Shown here: one piece after another, positions 33,934 to 41,773 of the stretch
Layout: each line of letters starts with the position of its first letter
How positions within the stretch are numbered: position 1 is the stretch's first letter
Source of the DNA: Nitrospirota bacterium
GTDB lineage: Bacteria; Nitrospirota; Thermodesulfovibrionia; Thermodesulfovibrionales; JdFR-88
Reading direction: 5' to 3'
DNA: 44,335 bases
Assembly: GCA_021813405.1 (NCBI GenBank)
Contig: JAKAKS010000056.1
Coordinates: forward strand, 1-44,335
Program-made: the position numbers and the translations under genes
The notes under the pieces: model-generated
What the model was told of the DNA's origin: nothing
The model's database searches: none
The model's input: only the letters and a program-made list of their open reading frames with translations

Positions 33934-35109
33934 ATGGAAACCGGTACGCAATACAAACCTATCGATATCACAAATTATGTGGATTTCTGCAAGGCCTCCG
34001 CCATCACGCTGATAGCCTTCTGGCATTACTATTACGTTCTTTCATATGGCGACTCGCTGGTTCTGCTGCAGCAAGGTGGCATAACTCACATCCTGGCCAA
34101 ATTCCCTCCATCAGGGTTGATCGCAGGCATAAAGACCCTGGCCATGCTGATTGTGGCGCTGGGCGGCGAGATGCCCCGGTTTTTCATAATCGCAAGCGGG
34201 TTTGGCCTGTACCTGGGCTATCTTAGGCGCAAGGACAACTGGGCGGTATTTTACAAGAAGAGGTTTATCAGAATATTGCCGCTATACTGGGCGGTCGTGA
34301 TACTGATTTACGCTTTCCATAAATACAGCATTGATGAAAAGGACGCGTTCAAGGTTTTTATTTACCATTTGCTGCTGGTCCAGACGTACACGAAGTACTC
34401 ACTGGCTTACGGTGCATTATGGTTTGTGGGATATATAGCGCAGCTTTATTTGCTTTTTCCGTTAATGGTGAATTTTTTTCAAAACCGTTGGCTGAAGATT
34501 TTTCTGGTTGTGTTTGCGATTTTCGGAAATGCGGTCATAGCTGAAATAATTCAGGCGGCCGGGTTTGAAGTGCAGGGGAAGCCGCCCACTTTATATCTGG
34601 CGTGCTTTGTTTTTGGAATGCTGCTGGCCGAAGGCGCATATGGCCAGAAAAAATACTTTCGCAAAATCTTTTCTAAAGCGTATTTGCCGGTTTTTGCGGC
34701 CTCAGCGGCCGTGCTTCTATACCTTGCAAACAATTATGGATTTTTTGACGGCGATATCTTTGCAAACGGCTTTGCGATTACGCTTTTCATGGTGGCATTC
34801 TGGCTATTCAGTGCTATTGCTATGCCCTTGCCCGCAGTCCAGAGGATTGCAAAACCGCTTGCATACAGTTCCTTTGCCCTGTTTCTTTCCCATCAGACAC
34901 TGAACGGGATTTTTCTTACTTACCTGGTTCGTTATCGCGTGGCCAAGTGCATAACATATGGAAACTGCATTGTACAGGTCCCCTCGCTCAGAAACGCGCT
35001 GCTGGAAATTCCGGTTTTCATTATTACAGTATTAATATGCCTGCCGGTCCAGAAGGGCTATGACTGGCTGGTGAGGGCGGTGCGTTCTCATAGGGGCTTG
35101 ACAATCTGA
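33934..35109 (+). CDS. Acyltransferase 3 family membrane O-acyltransferase
   Basis: A 391-residue integral membrane protein with about ten membrane helices. AFWHYYYV near residues 28-35 is the conserved His region of the acyltransferase 3 family, followed by the arginine motif YKKRFIRILPLYW (about 104-116). Such proteins add acetyl or other acyl groups to surface polysaccharides, peptidoglycan or lipid A. AGGAG is 4 bases before the ATG, overlapping the mfd stop, so it may be co-transcribed with mfd. Its neighbours on the downstream side are the antiterminator and a surface-glycan operon, so I infer it decorates that glycan. The local GC content is visibly lower than that of mfd. Confidence 0.85.
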   Translation: METGTQYKPIDITNYVDFCKASAITLIAFWHYYYVLSYGDSLVLLQQGGITHILAKFPPSGLIAGIKTLAMLIVALGGEMPRFFIIASGFGLYLGYLRRKDNWAVFYKKRFIRILPLYWAVVILIYAFHKYSIDEKDAFKVFIYHLLLVQTYTKYSLAYGALWFVGYIAQLYLLFPLMVNFFQNRWLKIFLVVFAIFGNAVIAEIIQAAGFEVQGKPPTLYLACFVFGMLLAEGAYGQKKYFRKIFSKAYLPVFAASAAVLLYLANNYGFFDGDIFANGFAITLFMVAFWLFSAIAMPLPAVQRIAKPLAYSSFALFLSHQTLNGIFLTYLVRYRVAKCITYGNCIVQVPSLRNALLEIPVFIITVLICLPVQKGYDWLVRAVRSHRGLTI

Positions 35110-35911: not shown

Positions 35912-35940
35912 TTGACAATACAATTTAAGATGTATAGAAT
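35912..35940 (+). promoter_or_regulatory. Strong promoter of the glycan operon
   Basis: TTGACA (35912-35917), an exact 17-base spacer and TAGAAT (35935-35940). It is the closest match to the sigma-70 consensus in the window. Transcription would begin near 35947, leaving a leader of about 120 bases before the epimerase ATG. Confidence 0.75.
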
Positions 35941-35984
35941 TTCAACCTAGGGTAGTAAAAAGATGTGCTGGTTGTGGTTGAAAT
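35939..35984 (+). promoter_or_regulatory. Inverted repeat over the transcription start
   Basis: ATTTCAACC (35939-35947) and GGTTGAAAT (35976-35984) are perfect 9-bp inverted repeats 28 bases apart. The left arm overlaps the end of the -10 box and the predicted start, so it could be an operator or part of a leader fold. Confidence 0.45.
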
Positions 35985-35997
35985 ATCTTTATATTGA

Positions 35998-36032
35998 GGG
36001 CCGCACACAAGGCGGCTCCGGCGGAGGCGTGC
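35998..36032 (+). promoter_or_regulatory. Leader hairpin and ops-like element
   Basis: GCCGC (36000-36004) and GCGGC (36012-36016), extendable by G.T and G-C pairs, form a hairpin. Immediately after it lies GGCGGAGGCGTGC (36020-36032). This matches the E. coli ops element GGCGGTAGCGTGC at 11 of 13 positions; the two differences are T6 to A and A7 to G. The GC/GC pairs that let the ops non-template strand fold into a small hairpin are kept. The position (about +74 to +86, 34 bases before the ATG) is right for an RfaH-recruiting pause site. A RfaH-like gene sits upstream. Confidence 0.65.
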
Positions 36033-36066
36033 CCGGTCTTTCCCGCAGGCCGGTTATGGAGGGGCA

Positions 36067-37035
36067 ATGCCGAAAATACTCTTGACTGGCGGTAAAGGTT
36101 TCATAGGCACCAATCTCTATACCGAGCTGTTGCGGCGTGGGCACGATGTATACACGTGCGACATAGCGCACTCTGACTCCGGCAAACACATCAGGTGCGA
36201 TATCGGCAGTTTCTGGCAGCTTGCAAGGATTTTTGAAGAGCACCGGTTCGATTACGTTTACCACATGGCCGCAGAACACGGCCGCTGCTACGGGGAGGAC
36301 TATTACGAGAGCCTTTGGATTACAAACGCGATAGGCACTAAAAACGTGCTGAGGCTTCAGGAACGCCACGGCTTCAGGCTGGTATATTTCAGCAGTGCCG
36401 GTGTGTACGGCGATTATGGCGGCCTGATGCGCGAAGACATTACGGAAAAGATGCCCTTGCGTCAGATAAACGATAATGCAATCGTGAAAATGGCCGGCGA
36501 GATGCAGGTGATGAACTCCGCAAGGATGTTCGGTACGGAATCCGTGCGTGTACGGATGGGCAATACCTACGGACCTCATGAATATTACAGCCCGTACAGA
36601 GGGGCGATCCCGGTTTTTGTGTACAGGGCGCTTATGGACAGGCCCTACATCGTCTATACCGGCCATTACAGGATCTTCGCTTATGTGGAAGACACATGCC
36701 GTACGCTGGCCAATATAGTGGATAATTTCATTCCGGGTGAGGTTTACAACATCGGCGGACGTGAGGACTGGCTGACGGACATCAAGCATGTCTCCGATCT
36801 GGTATTGTCCTGCCTTGGGAAAAACGATTCGCTTGTCACTTACAAAGACGCAGAGCCTTTTGTGATTAAGACAAAACGGATGGATTTCTCTAAATCCAGA
36901 GCGCACCTGATGCACGCCCCTAAAATTACGCTTGAAATGGGGATCCCGAAATATATTGACTGGATTAAGCAGAAATATTTGGAGAATAAATCCGGCGCCG
37001 TCCACACGGTGGAAAAAATACTTAGCCCTCTTTAA
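36067..37035 (+). CDS. NAD-dependent epimerase/dehydratase with altered active site
   Basis: A 322-residue extended short-chain dehydrogenase. The nucleotide-binding [11 protein letters not shown] (8-18), [24 protein letters not shown] (Ser present) and the later NTYGPHEY and EVYNIGG segments are normal. The catalytic motif YxxxK should fall at NAIVKMAGE, but residue 137 is Asn where Tyr is expected; Lys141 is kept. The codon is AAT, one base from TAT. The family makes activated sugars such as UDP-galactose, dTDP-rhamnose or related products. GGAGGGG is a few bases before the ATG. It is the first gene of the operon after the ops-like leader. If the Tyr is truly missing it may be a non-redox or otherwise altered enzyme. 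Confidence 0.88.
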
Positions 37036-37094
37036 AAGCAACAGGCCATCCTGCCCATTGTTTGCAAATTGCGGCCCTGCCAACAGGAAATAAA

Positions 37095-37733
37095 ATGATA
37101 GCGCCAAATGAAATGAACCTCTCCAATATAAAATGGCATGGCGGTAAAGTGGGCAAGAATGACAGATGGTTTAAAAACAGCCATAAATCCGCCCTTGTAT
37201 GGCTTACCGGGCTGTCCGCTTCCGGCAAGTCGACGGTTGCCGTTGAGCTGGAGCGAATGCTTTTCGGGGTGAATGTAAACACATTTGTCCTTGACGGAGA
37301 CAACGTAAGACACGGGTTGAGCAGGGATTTGCGCTTTTCCCCCGAGGACAGAAGCGAGAACCTGCGCCGCATTGGAGAAGTAGCCAAGCTGATGGTTGAG
37401 GCCGGGATACTTACGATAGCCGCCTTCATTTCGCCTTACCGGCAGGACAGGGAAAATGTCAGATTGCTTTTCCAGGAAGGCGAGTTCATTGAGGTTTACC
37501 TGAGGTGCAGTATCGGGATATGCGAACAGCGGGACCCGAAAGGATTCTACAGGAAGGCCCGCGCGGGGCTTATCCCGGAGTTTACCGGCATTTCAGCCCC
37601 TTATGAGGAGCCAGAGAGTCCGGAAATAACTCTGGATACAGGCAATATGCCAGTGGAAGCTGCCGTAGAGGAGATTTATTCCTACCTGATGGACAGGAAC
37701 ATTATAAACGCATCAAGACAAATCAGGGGCTAG
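37095..37733 (+). CDS. cysC: Adenylyl-sulfate (APS) kinase
   Basis: A 212-residue kinase. The P-loop is GLSASGKST (39-47), and DGDNVRHGL (67-75), [13 protein letters not shown] and [19 protein letters not shown] are characteristic. It phosphorylates APS to 3'-phosphoadenylyl sulfate (PAPS), the universal sulfate donor. AGGA lies 7 bases before the ATG at 37095; a TTG at 37062 gives only an 11-residue extension without a site. No CysD/CysN or CysH gene is nearby. Placed directly before a sulfotransferase, it probably serves glycan sulfation rather than assimilation. Confidence 0.93.
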
Positions 37734-37739
37734 CTGAAA

Positions 37740-38651
37740 ATGCAAATAAGGCCTGATTTCTTCATAGCCGGGGCCCCGAAATGCGGCACGACGGCAATGG
37801 ATTCTTTTCTGGGAAAACACCCTGAGATATTCATGGCGCCGGTAAAGGAATTGCATTACTTTGGTACGGACCTGAAGTTTAACGTCCCCAGGATAAATCT
37901 GAATGATTATCTGATGCAGTTTGCAGGCGTAAAGAATGAAAAACGCATCGGCGAGTCCTCGGTCTGGTACCTTTACTCCAAAACTGCGGCGCGGGAAATA
38001 AAGCAATTTGCGCCTTCTGCGCGCATAATCATAATGCTCAGAAATCCTGTTGACATGATCCATTCCCAGCACAGCCAGCTTGTATATGAGGGATTTGAGG
38101 ACATCCCCGATTTTGAGGCCGCCCTGGCTGCAGAGGAAACAAGGAAAAGAGCTGGTGTTTTACCTCCGCTAAAAGGGACCTCCATTGAATTTCTGTTATA
38201 TCGTGAAACGGCCAGGTATTCCGGGCAACTCCGGCGCTATATGGATATTTTCGGAGAGCAAAATGTACACGTTATCATTTATGACGATTTTAAGAACGAC
38301 CAGTCCGGCGTTTATAGAGATACACTGGCATTTCTTGATTTAGAGGACATTGATTTTGTTCCGGAATTCCGGATTATTAACCAGAACAAGAAAATCAGGA
38401 GCATGGCCATCCAGAAAATGGTTAAGGACGTGAACCACCCGGTAAGGAAATTTATAAAAAAATTTGTGCCGGTTAAAATGAGGAGTTCGCTTCTGGAGCG
38501 CGCGCACGGCCTGAATGTGTATGGCGCCGCGCGTGCCCCGTTGCCAAACGCATTTAGAAGAAAACTCCAGCGCGAATTTGCACCGGACATAAAAAGCCTG
38601 GGTATTATGCTGAAGCGGGACCTGTCCTTCTGGCTGGATGCGGGCTCATGA
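37740..38651 (+). CDS. PAPS-dependent sulfotransferase
   Basis: A 303-residue protein of the Sulfotransfer_1/3 type. The 5'-phosphosulfate-binding loop is GAPKCGTT (11-18), and the 3'-phosphate-binding motif is RNPVDMIHSQHS (101-112), with the conserved Arg and Ser. Such enzymes transfer sulfate from PAPS to hydroxyls or amines of carbohydrates or lipids; heparan- or chondroitin-type members have the same pattern. The gene is 6 bases after cysC, and its ATGA overlaps the next gene, so all three should be co-translated. The acceptor is probably the glycan assembled by the following glycosyltransferases. Confidence 0.92.
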   Translation: MQIRPDFFIAGAPKCGTTAMDSFLGKHPEIFMAPVKELHYFGTDLKFNVPRINLNDYLMQFAGVKNEKRIGESSVWYLYSKTAAREIKQFAPSARIIIMLRNPVDMIHSQHSQLVYEGFEDIPDFEAALAAEETRKRAGVLPPLKGTSIEFLLYRETARYSGQLRRYMDIFGEQNVHVIIYDDFKNDQSGVYRDTLAFLDLEDIDFVPEFRIINQNKKIRSMAIQKMVKDVNHPVRKFIKKFVPVKMRSSLLERAHGLNVYGAARAPLPNAFRRKLQREFAPDIKSLGIMLKRDLSFWLDAGS

Positions 38652-39970
38652 GGATGTCATTTTGCACAGGGCCGCTAAAAAATCTGACTGCGGACAAGAA
38701 GAGGCTGGCTTCAAATTTCTTTTCACTTTCGGTTGTGAAATGGGCCGATGTTGTTCTGCCTCTTGTTACTTTTCCATACCTGGCAAGGGTGCTTGGGGCC
38801 CGCGGGTTCGGCATGGTGGCTTTTGCTCAGGCATTTGTAAATTTTTTTGCGCTAATCAGGGATTACGGCTTTAACCTCTCAGCCACAAAAGAGATTTCAA
38901 TAAGCAGAAACGATAAGGAAAAAGTGTCCGAAATCTTCAGTTCGGTCATGATTGCCAAGGCGGGATTTGTATTGGCCAGTTTTTTAATCGTGAGTATTGC
39001 CGTTTTAAATTTGCACGTATTCAGCGATAACCGGTTGCTGTACTTTTTGACATTCGGGACGCTGGTGGGCAATGGCTTGCTGCCGATCTGGCTTTTTCAG
39101 GGGATGGAGAAAATGGGGCCTATGGCGGTTTTGGACCTGCTTGCACGGGTTGCATATACTGTGTCAATTTTTATATTCGTAAGGAAAACATCCGATTACA
39201 TTTATGTGCCTGTGTTAAGCTCCGTTATATCGTCCGGCGCCGGCCTGCTGGCTTTACTGGTGGCGGTTAAAACTTTCGGGATACGATTCAAAATACCGTC
39301 GTCTGAGGCAATAAACCATCAGTTGAAAGAGGGGTGGCGCATCTTTACGGCAATGGCTGCCAACAGCCTGTATTCCATGAGCGACACTTTTATTCTTGGG
39401 CTTTTCGCAAGCAGGGAGGCTGTTGGTTATTACAGCGCCGGTTCAAAAATTATCCGGGCAGCCCACCGGATGCTTACCCCGGTTTACGATTCAGTTTATC
39501 CATACATCAGCAAAATGGCGCAGGAGTCCAGGGAAAATGCAATCGGCTTCATCAGAAAAATGCTTAAGATTGCCGGCATTCCGGTTCTGCTGGTATCCAT
39601 CATATTATTTTGTTTCGCTCCTGAAATCAGCGCCATGGCCCTGGGTAAAAACTTCAGCGAAAGCATTCCGGTTTTAAGGATACTGGCATTCTTGCCCATC
39701 CTGTTTTTTTTGAACAATTTTTTTGGCATGCAGACCATGCTGCCCCTGGGCTTGAAAAAAGCCTTCAGCAGTATTTTCATATCTGCTGCGGCATTAAATA
39801 TTCTGCTTGCTCTTGTCCTAGTGCCGCCCATGAAACAGACAGGCATCTCGATTGCTGTACTGATTACGGAAACTTATGTACCAGTGGCAATGCTGTTTCA
39901 TTTGTACCGGAGAGGGGTGCGGCTTTTTAAAATCAGATCGCTTCAGCCCGGCACTGGCGCGGGCGTTTGA
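38648..39970 (+). CDS. Wzx-type polysaccharide flippase
   Basis: A 440-residue integral membrane protein with about 12-14 membrane helices, opening NFFSLSVVKWADVVLPLVTFPYLARVLGARGFG, the MATE/MVF flippase hallmark. It should move undecaprenyl-linked repeat units of an O-antigen or capsule to the periplasmic face. It overlaps the sulfotransferase stop by 4 bases (ATGA). A Wzx protein points to a Wzy-dependent pathway rather than an ABC-exporter. Confidence 0.9.
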   Translation: MRMSFCTGPLKNLTADKKRLASNFFSLSVVKWADVVLPLVTFPYLARVLGARGFGMVAFAQAFVNFFALIRDYGFNLSATKEISISRNDKEKVSEIFSSVMIAKAGFVLASFLIVSIAVLNLHVFSDNRLLYFLTFGTLVGNGLLPIWLFQGMEKMGPMAVLDLLARVAYTVSIFIFVRKTSDYIYVPVLSSVISSGAGLLALLVAVKTFGIRFKIPSSEAINHQLKEGWRIFTAMAANSLYSMSDTFILGLFASREAVGYYSAGSKIIRAAHRMLTPVYDSVYPYISKMAQESRENAIGFIRKMLKIAGIPVLLVSIILFCFAPEISAMALGKNFSESIPVLRILAFLPILFFLNNFFGMQTMLPLGLKKAFSSIFISAAALNILLALVLVPPMKQTGISIAVLITETYVPVAMLFHLYRRGVRLFKIRSLQPGTGAGV

Positions 39971-39985
39971 TGAAGGAATATGGAA

Positions 39986-40828
39986 ATGAAACTGTCGGTC
40001 ATAATAATATCCTTTAACACAAGAGGGATTTTGCGCAGGTGCCTGGCCTTGCTGTGTGGCACCCTCAAGGACAGCGCCTGCGAGGTGATAGTGGTAGATA
40101 ATAATTCCACGGACGGCAGCCTGGAAATGATGGCCGCGGAGTATCCGGAAATCACTGTCATACGCAATGAAAAAAACGTTGGATTTGCAAAGGCAAACAA
40201 CCAGGCAATTAATATAGCGCGCGGCCAGTACCTGCTTTTATTGAACAGCGATGCCTTTGCAACAGGAAATGCAGTTAATTTGCTTGTGCGTTTTCTGGAT
40301 GGCCACCCCGCAGCCGGCATAGCCGGCCCAAAGGTGCTGAATCCGGATGGTTCGCTCCAGAGTAAAGGCTATTTCTTTCCTTCAGTATTTTATTCCATAT
40401 TCACGTTGACAAAAATGCACAGGATAGTCCCGCATAAAATTTTGTCGAAGATATTGAGGCACTACTATTGGAACGAGAATGAAACCAGAGATGTGGATTG
40501 GGTAAGCGGATGTTGTCTCCTTGTCAGAAGAGATGCAATTACCCGGATCGGCCCCCTGTCGGAGGACTTCTTCATGTATTGCGAGGACGTGGAACTGTGC
40601 TTCAGGGCAAAAAAACACGGATATCAGGTCTGGTACGTGCCTGAGGCCGTGGTGACGCATCTTAATTGCGGTTCGAAATGCGAAAACAGACAGGAATTAT
40701 TGCAGGCATCCCGGCAAATATTGTACAGCAAGTCACTTGGCGTAAATGCCGGCAGGCTTGTGAAATTAAATACGCTTGTTGCCTTGCAAATGGCAAACAT
40801 GAAAAGAAAGTTACCATTTGCACATTGA
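39986..40828 (+). CDS. Family 2 glycosyltransferase, rhamnosyltransferase-like
   Basis: A 280-residue GT-A enzyme. VIIISFNTRGILRRCL, VIVVDNNSTDGS, NVGFAKANNQAI and the metal-binding LLNSDAF mark the nucleotide-sugar domain; DWVSGCCLLVRRDAI and DFFMYCEDVELCFRAKKHGY mark the acceptor side. This pattern is shared with WbbL-type rhamnosyltransferases, but the sugar is unproven. The start is ATG 39986 (8 bases after AGGA), not the ATG at 39980, which is too close. Confidence 0.88.
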   Translation: MKLSVIIISFNTRGILRRCLALLCGTLKDSACEVIVVDNNSTDGSLEMMAAEYPEITVIRNEKNVGFAKANNQAINIARGQYLLLLNSDAFATGNAVNLLVRFLDGHPAAGIAGPKVLNPDGSLQSKGYFFPSVFYSIFTLTKMHRIVPHKILSKILRHYYWNENETRDVDWVSGCCLLVRRDAITRIGPLSEDFFMYCEDVELCFRAKKHGYQVWYVPEAVVTHLNCGSKCENRQELLQASRQILYSKSLGVNAGRLVKLNTLVALQMANMKRKLPFAH

Positions 40829-40873: not shown

Positions 40874-41773
40874 GTGATATACGATTGTTTCATTTTTTAT
40901 AACGAGATCGAATTGCTTGAGCTAAGGCTGAAGACACTCGATAAAGTTGTGGATTATTTTGTTCTGGTTGAAGCAAACAGGACATTTACCAATCAATACA
41001 AGCCGTATAATTTTGAAATTAATAAGAACAAATTCCAAAAGTTCCTCCACCGGATTGTTCATATCAAAGTTGATGACATGCCGGATTCAAACGATGCCTG
41101 GGGCCGGGAAATACATCAGAGGAATTGTATTATGAGGGGTTTGCTGGGGTGCGGGGCCGATGATCTGGTCTTGATATCCGATGTTGATGAGATACCCAAT
41201 CCAGGCGTTCTGGCATCTTTCCTGGGAAGCAACAAAATGACGCTCCGGTTTTCCAACAGCCGCTTTAAAATCAAAAATCTTGCGTTAAGCATTCCGCTGA
41301 ATCTTTATTACCGGCTTTTTGGCGCCCTTAATCTGCTGAACAATACTCCCGTGGTTTTAGAGCAGGATATTTTTTATTATTATGTAAATTGCAAAAGCCA
41401 AAAAAAATGGCCGGGCTGTATTTTAACAAAGTATAAATATATCTCATTGCCTCAGGATCTGCGGCAGTGGGACAGGCGCATTTCAATGCCCAGATTGCCT
41501 GGGGCCGGATGGCATTTTTCCTATCTGGGCGGAATCAGCAGAATTGCTGACAAGATAAAGGCATTTGCCCACACTGAAATGAATACGCAATCGTTCACCT
41601 CTGCCGCATGGATTAAAAGCAGGATTGTAAACGGTGAGGACCTGTTTTGCCGCAATGAAGAGGGCGGGGGCAGATTTGAATTTATGGAAATAGATTCCGC
41701 ATTACCCGCGTATACAGGCCCTTTGATTGAAAAATATCCCTATTTATATTTAAAAGCGTCGGCTAAAAAGTGA
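40874..41773 (+). CDS. Family 17 glycosyltransferase
   Basis: A 299-residue protein. It begins MIYDCFIFYNEIELLELRL, with KVVDYFVLVEANRTFTN and the DVDEIPNP motif, the mark of GT17 (related to mammalian GnT-III, beta-1,4-N-acetylglucosaminyltransferase). GT17 is less common in bacteria than GT2 or GT4. The start is GTG at 40874, without a clear Shine-Dalgarno sequence. The region is AT-rich: bases 40921-40980 have 24 of 60 G/C. It probably adds one sugar to the glycan repeat unit. Confidence 0.82.
   Translation: MIYDCFIFYNEIELLELRLKTLDKVVDYFVLVEANRTFTNQYKPYNFEINKNKFQKFLHRIVHIKVDDMPDSNDAWGREIHQRNCIMRGLLGCGADDLVLISDVDEIPNPGVLASFLGSNKMTLRFSNSRFKIKNLALSIPLNLYYRLFGALNLLNNTPVVLEQDIFYYYVNCKSQKKWPGCILTKYKYISLPQDLRQWDRRISMPRLPGAGWHFSYLGGISRIADKIKAFAHTEMNTQSFTSAAWIKSRIVNGEDLFCRNEEGGGRFEFMEIDSALPAYTGPLIEKYPYLYLKASAKK

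Follow-up and report, generated by a model that had tools for sequence, protein, structure and literature searches.

Several bacterial polysaccharide clusters with a sulfotransferase have been described. In Cobetia marina KMM 1449 and Vibrio sp. KMM 8419, sulfated capsule clusters were identified and the sulfate of the polymer was chemically shown (PMC11766843, PMC11641403), and the presence of PAPS synthesis genes and a sulfotransferase in one polysaccharide cluster was proposed as a hallmark (PMC11641403). The product of the synechan (xss) cluster of Synechocystis PCC 6803 was also shown to be sulfated (PMC8205485), an N-sulfated exopolymer has been published for Pontiella, and sulfation was predicted for the wps-1 cluster of Actinoplanes missouriensis (PMC13390465). 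Sulfated glycosaminoglycan-like polymers were measured in granular sludge, where their producers are unclear (PMC7356697, PMC10483923). The first-pass annotation of the DNA analysed here had called bacterial sulfated polysaccharides uncommon, but the published cases from Cobetia, Vibrio and cyanobacteria make them less rare than it had stated. We found no report of a sulfated polysaccharide in Nitrospirota in the open-access papers that were searched.

The window, i.e., the whole stretch of 44,335 nucleotides that was analysed, is the entire contig C56 (JAKAKS010000056.1) of a 2.9-Mb Nitrospirota draft genome that has 56 contigs and is estimated to be complete. All the operon genes that it carries are on one strand (+), and the relevant features are the following.

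33934..35109, + strand: membrane O-acyltransferase (Acyl_transf_3); PF01757, 84 bits; gene order shared with the sister species, 80% identity
35138..35644, + strand: RfaH/UpxY-like NusG paralogue; PF02357, 52 bits; 93% identity in the sister species
35912..35940, + strand: sigma-70-like promoter, TTGACA-17-TAGAAT, 11/12 consensus match; a conserved leader (GGGTAGTAAAA block) starts here
36067..37035, + strand: NAD-dependent sugar epimerase/dehydratase; PF01370, 127 bits; 93% identity in the sister species
37095..37733, + strand: cysC, APS kinase; PF01583, NCBIfam, motifs, dN/dS
37740..38651, + strand: PAPS-type sulfotransferase, heparan-sulfate-sulfotransferase-like; PF13469, PF00685, fold, residues, dN/dS
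38648..39970, + strand: Wzx flippase; PF01943, 189 bits; 4-base overlap with the sulfotransferase gene
39980..40828, + strand: GT2 glycosyltransferase; PF00535, 91 bits
40874..41773, + strand: GT17-family glycosyltransferase; PF04724, 104 bits
41814..42971, + strand: GT4 glycosyltransferase; PF00534, 111 bits
42972..43994, + strand: GT2-like glycosyltransferase; PF13632, 36 bits
43991..44335, + strand: Wzy-type polymerase, first part, truncated where the contig ends; PF04932, 46 bits for the portion on C20

The earlier description of a cysC gene followed, 6 bases later, by a PAPS-type sulfotransferase gene overlapping wzx was borne out in both coordinates and family matches: the cysC stop is at 37733, the sulfotransferase ATG is at 37740, and the sulfotransferase stop shares 4 bases with the wzx ATG (38648-38651). 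The O-acyltransferase has a possible role in glycan O-acylation, and its membership in the operon is uncertain. The GT17 family is mainly associated with eukaryotic N-glycan synthesis; its member at 40874-41773 sits in a bacterial capsule operon.

The operon is split over two contigs in this draft genome. The start of contig C20 (L206, first ~106 bases) overlaps the end of C56 and carries on the same protein, and this overlap has a few mismatches, which suggests that strain variation broke the assembly inside the wzy gene. The remainder of this gene is on C20 (L206:3-1064), and the sister species has a whole copy (L098:3527-4828). C20 then encodes a GT2 and a GT4 glycosyltransferase, a PseC-like aminotransferase, an initiating sugar transferase, an acetyltransferase, a LegC-like aminotransferase, a 4,6-dehydratase, a FecR-domain protein, Wza, Wzc, and then a second Wzy_C protein, so that this part of the operon has two aminotransferases and one 4,6-dehydratase. 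Profile searches matched the initiating transferase (PF02397), Wzx (PF01943), Wzy (PF04932) and Wza (PF02563), and the Wzc-type kinase matched TIGR01007 above its cut-off. Since these five components are all encoded, the cysC-sulfotransferase pair lies, judging from gene content, within a complete capsule or exopolysaccharide locus of the Wzx/Wzy type.

A species of the same genus (G038) has a syntenic operon on a contig of 22,371 bases, colinear in one piece up to Wza; the initiating transferase is absent from its list of open reading frames. This operon has an additional aldo/keto reductase gene between the epimerase and cysC genes (L039:3738-4613), which is cleanly missing at positions 37036-37094 of the window. 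The comparison also settles the start of cysC, because the ATG at 37095 is conserved whereas the longer TTG start at 37062, which we rejected, lies in the spacer preceding the extra gene of the sister species. The start of the sulfotransferase gene in the sister MAG (L039:5279) is an ATT aligned to our ATG, which is either a rare start codon or a sequencing error. Between the two species dN/dS is 0.137 for cysC and 0.148 for the sulfotransferase gene (dS ~0.26), with values of ~0.14 for cysC, the sulfotransferase gene and wzx, and both genes of the pair are under purifying selection. The order kept in a second species and the low dN/dS imply that this gene arrangement is not due to chance.

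The region upstream of the epimerase gene holds candidates for regulation. The NusG paralogue scored 77 bits against the RfaH model (cut-off 124) and 65 bits against UpxY (cut-off 100), and thus falls below the cut-off for membership in the RfaH family; it is a probable operon-specific antiterminator, with a mode of action that may resemble that of RfaH. Both the promoter-like site (35912-35940) and the block that follows it are conserved in the sister species. Since shuffled sequences give as many promoter-like matches as this region, what singles out the site at 35912 is its conservation. The stretch 35912-36066, which holds the promoter-like site and a conserved block containing CCTAGGGTAGTAAAA, stands before the epimerase gene and downstream of the RfaH-like gene; this leader (GGGTAGTAAAA/CCTAGGGTAGTAAAA) is a possible ops-like element.

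The assignment of CysC is supported by several profiles, all matched above their cut-offs: PF01583 (213 bits) and the NCBIfam adenylyl-sulfate kinase models NF003013 (282 bits) and TIGR00455 (248 bits). The P-loop, DGDNVR and FISP motifs are present and align with those of E. coli CysC. The protein is thus a canonical APS kinase by family, and would be expected to convert APS into PAPS. It is the sole canonical APS kinase found in a PF01583 search of the whole genome. Another candidate on contig C33 (L007:8257-8835) matched PF01583 with 77 bits, has neither the DGDN nor the ISP motif, and was rejected as a second APS kinase; no sulfotransferase gene was seen near this P-loop protein.

The neighboring gene encodes the only sulfotransferase found in the genome with PF13469 (54 bits) or PF00685 (47 bits), both matched above cut-off. 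Its AlphaFold model has a pLDDT of 93.6, and the best Foldseek hits, with probability 1.00, were the structure 3rnl (E 9e-21), 3-OST (3e-11) and NDST (1e-9), whereas SULT and tyrosine sulfotransferases ranked behind (2e-5 or worse). The same families were recovered by sequence with a profile built from 45 relatives. The residues expected to bind PAPS are conserved among these relatives: in the 5'-PSB loop (GAPKCGTT) K14 is present in 44 of the 45, and the 3'-phosphate-binding residues R101 and S109 in 45 and 40, respectively. E37, in the motif K-E-x-H-[YF]-F (KELHYF here), is found in 42 relatives, with D in two others, and aligns with the glutamate of the EVHFF motif of 3-OST-1, the catalytic residue of 3-OSTs. 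These data point to a PAPS-dependent sulfotransferase that, from its sequence and predicted fold, most resembles glycan (heparan-sulfate) sulfotransferases. It shares with the 3-OSTs and the N-sulfotransferase domain of NDST the fold, the PAPS-binding motifs and the position of the catalytic glutamate. Yet identity to them is only ~17%, and while 3-OSTs and NDST are animal Golgi enzymes whose acceptor is a polymer, this bacterial protein would probably act before export. No signal peptide is evident in its N-terminal sequence, which is consistent with a cytosolic reaction, in the compartment of PAPS synthesis. The closest solved structure, 3rnl, is a sulfotransferase of Alicyclobacillus acidocaldarius with 31% identity over the whole length; its title names no acceptor, and thus it does not settle the substrate.

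If CysC makes PAPS, one must ask where APS comes from and where PAPS goes. The first-pass annotation had noted that there are no sulfate-assimilation genes nearby; none were seen in the window, and CysD and CysH were not found genome-wide either. The one marginal match to their family (PF01507, 22.4 bits, on contig C12) was rejected, because this stretch fits NAD synthase better and probably belongs to another N-type ATP pyrophosphatase. An assimilatory sulfate reduction set (cysDNC-HIJ) requires CysD and CysH, and since our genome search found neither, cysC is not the spare copy of an assimilation gene. As the genome has one sulfotransferase and no detectable CysH or CysD, PAPS has no visible use other than the sulfotransferase. 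The same annotation had proposed that the operon makes its own sulfate donor. This holds for the last step, catalyzed by CysC, but we found no ATP sulfurylase in the operon and APS has to come from elsewhere. The only ATP sulfurylase found in the genome (GCA_021813405.1) is Sat, whose gene directly adjoins aprBA in our family search, leaving APS with no other visible source. Because of this neighborhood, and of a DsrA match above cut-off, the genome encodes enzymes of dissimilatory sulfate metabolism, whose direction we infer to be reduction. The APS used by CysC thus probably comes from the Sat beside aprBA, i.e., from sulfate respiration. No PAP phosphatase was found in the operon; one gene of the inositol-phosphatase family elsewhere in the genome encodes a protein that could remove PAP.

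Our survey of the order covered 149 genomes (thresholds of E <= 1e-10 for the sulfotransferase and E <= 1e-20 for cysC), among which 26 have the sulfotransferase and 70 have cysC. Of the 26 genomes with the sulfotransferase, 24 also have cysC, against 46 of the remaining 123 (Fisher p 1.5e-7, with genomes that are not independent). Glycan genes are found at 35 of 60 cysC loci, cysD/N at two, and an inositol-phosphatase-family (CysQ-like) neighbor at 5 of 20 sampled loci. The first-pass annotation had suggested comparing APS kinase-sulfotransferase pairs in other glycan operons; our counts of cysC and sulfotransferase loci gave different answers from the two sides. Among the 60 cysC loci, 13 lie within 10 kb of a sulfotransferase gene of the same subfamily, which in every case is encoded on the same strand and in six cases is adjacent, and two more sampled loci have other PF13469 sulfotransferases next door. 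Conversely, among 79 named sulfotransferase loci (from Chloroflexota, Cyanobacteria, Planctomycetota, Pseudomonadota, Bacteroidota, Actinomycetota and others) cysC is present at five (flanks of up to 10 kb), and we rejected a general rule by which this family pairs with cysC. A more recurrent partner is wzx, which directly adjoins the sulfotransferase gene in ~20 of the 79 loci, in several phyla; all 10 of the adjacent wzx genes that we checked match flippase families.

The sulfotransferase family is not restricted to glycan loci. Twelve Chloroflexota relatives (~42-44% identity; L170, L171, L173, L175-L177, L179, L187, L194, L195, L197, L198) lie in a non-glycan context, either fused to an LPG_synthase_TM domain or next to one, which led us to reject a glycan-only family; in L171 the cassette is followed by acetoacetate-decarboxylase-like and SDR genes. 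These cassettes are perhaps involved in lipid sulfation. Given their existence, the acceptor is not readable from the family alone, and its assignment in our operon rests mainly on the local context. Nor does the sulfotransferase strictly imply a detectable source of PAPS, since a single-contig Nitrospirota genome (G005; CP070669) has two homologues near glycosyltransferase genes (L045, L046) and no convincing APS kinase (best PF01583 match of 21 bits). The anammox bacteria Brocadia pituitae and Kuenenia hertensis (L128, L137) have sulfotransferases 47-53% identical to ours, and the Brocadia locus has another copy directly beside wzx; these bacteria are a candidate source of the sulfated polymers described from anammox granules.

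Taken together, these results make it probable that the pair provides the sulfation step of the Wzx/Wzy capsule or exopolysaccharide operon and that the surface glycan is sulfated. We favor glycan sulfation because the genome searches found no other sulfotransferase and no other canonical APS kinase, the fold resembles that of glycan sulfotransferases, the Wzx/Wzy locus is complete, and adjacency to wzx is recurrent. The proposal that sulfate is added to the repeat unit of the operon is thus well supported, the operon and the adjacency to wzx favoring a glycan acceptor. The Sat beside aprBA would turn sulfate into APS, part of which CysC, an APS kinase by family, would convert to PAPS. With this PAPS the cytosolic sulfotransferase would then sulfate the repeat unit while it is still undecaprenyl-linked and has not yet been flipped by Wzx, the sulfuryl group going to a hydroxyl or perhaps to an amino group; this step is suggested by context, fold and the recurrent neighborhood of wzx. 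Polymerisation and export by Wzy, Wzc and Wza, all encoded in the operon, would yield an acidic surface glycan that carries sulfate.

Some bacterial sulfotransferases make sulfolipids, and together with the lipid-like context of the Chloroflexota relatives this raises the question of whether our enzyme acts on a lipid or another small acceptor, its position in a glycan operon being coincidental. We regard this as unlikely, because the gene is embedded in a complete glycan operon and overlaps wzx, relatives adjoin wzx in ~20 of the 79 named loci, and the fold is nearest to glycan sulfotransferases. Slightly less plausible still is that the sulfated product is an O-antigen or a protein-linked glycan. 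O-antigens are also made by Wzx/Wzy routes, and the second Wzy_C gene further along is ligase-like, but the operon encodes a Wza-type exporter and a Wzc-type kinase, which are typical of capsules and exopolysaccharides.

Other scenarios dispense with sulfation of the glycan altogether. PAPS was proposed to be a second messenger for polysaccharide expression in Vibrio vulnificus (PMC6113621), and might here serve signalling, or assimilation, rather than the sulfotransferase. This is very improbable, since no CysH was found, which leaves no assimilation through PAPS, and cysC is directly followed by the one sulfotransferase gene that the genome searches recovered. The least probable scenario is that of a decaying or silent locus lacking sulfation: although this operon lacks the aldo/keto reductase gene of the sister species and the sulfotransferase of the sister MAG starts with ATT, the remaining genes are intact, the low dN/dS extends to cysC, the sulfotransferase gene and wzx, and the promoter-like site is conserved.

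Sulfation of the capsule or exopolysaccharide from respiratory APS, if true, would mean that a sulfate-respiring lineage puts the first intermediate of its respiration into a surface polymer that is sulfated and strongly acidic. Such a polymer could influence how the cells bind metals, aggregate, and meet phages or grazers. We lean, by a small measure, towards a broader hypothesis: in the capsule operons of sulfate-respiring Nitrospirota a stand-alone APS kinase would tap the Sat-AprBA-Dsr pathway for APS and so supply a Wzx-coupled sulfotransferase, tying the charge of the envelope to sulfate respiration and not to assimilation. The known range of sulfated polysaccharides would also grow by one phylum, as none turned up for Nitrospirota in the open-access papers that were searched. 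The homologues, including those of the anammox genera Brocadia and Kuenenia, are candidates for the production of the sulfated polymers of granular sludge (PMC7356697, PMC10483923), and the recurrent adjacency of sulfotransferase and wzx genes provides a simple marker to find sulfated-glycan clusters.

The locus can be compared with known systems. Like our operon, the Cobetia and Vibrio clusters have PAPS-making genes and a sulfotransferase within a polysaccharide cluster, but they use ABC export and encode cysN, cysD and cysC (and cysQ in Cobetia), whereas here there is cysC only, with Wzx/Wzy export, and, unlike in those clusters, cysD was not found in the genome. The proposed hallmark (PMC11641403) is present in that cysC and the sulfotransferase gene are both in the operon, while the ATP sulfurylase is outside the cluster. 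The xss cluster is, like ours, a Wzx/Wzy polysaccharide cluster with sulfotransferase genes; it has two of them and a two-component/STAND regulator, instead of one and an RfaH-like protein, and the text of the paper mentions no APS kinase gene (PMC8205485). The wps-1 cluster, also of the Wzx/Wzy type, names the heparan-sulfate-sulfotransferase-like wpsH next after the wzx gene wpsG, and differs by belonging to an actinomycete and having two sulfotransferases. For the cultured magnetotactic bacterium Mf. australis IT-1, four sulfotransferases were reported alongside one sulfate adenylyltransferase and two adenylylsulfate kinases, while CysH was absent; this inventory resembles that of our genome, though it was not interpreted there in terms of a sulfated glycan (PMC5088516). 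This bacterium thus very probably carries sulfate on its surface sugar, a trait that is known but uncommon among bacteria and for which we found no report in Nitrospirota; the likely source of its APS is of particular interest.
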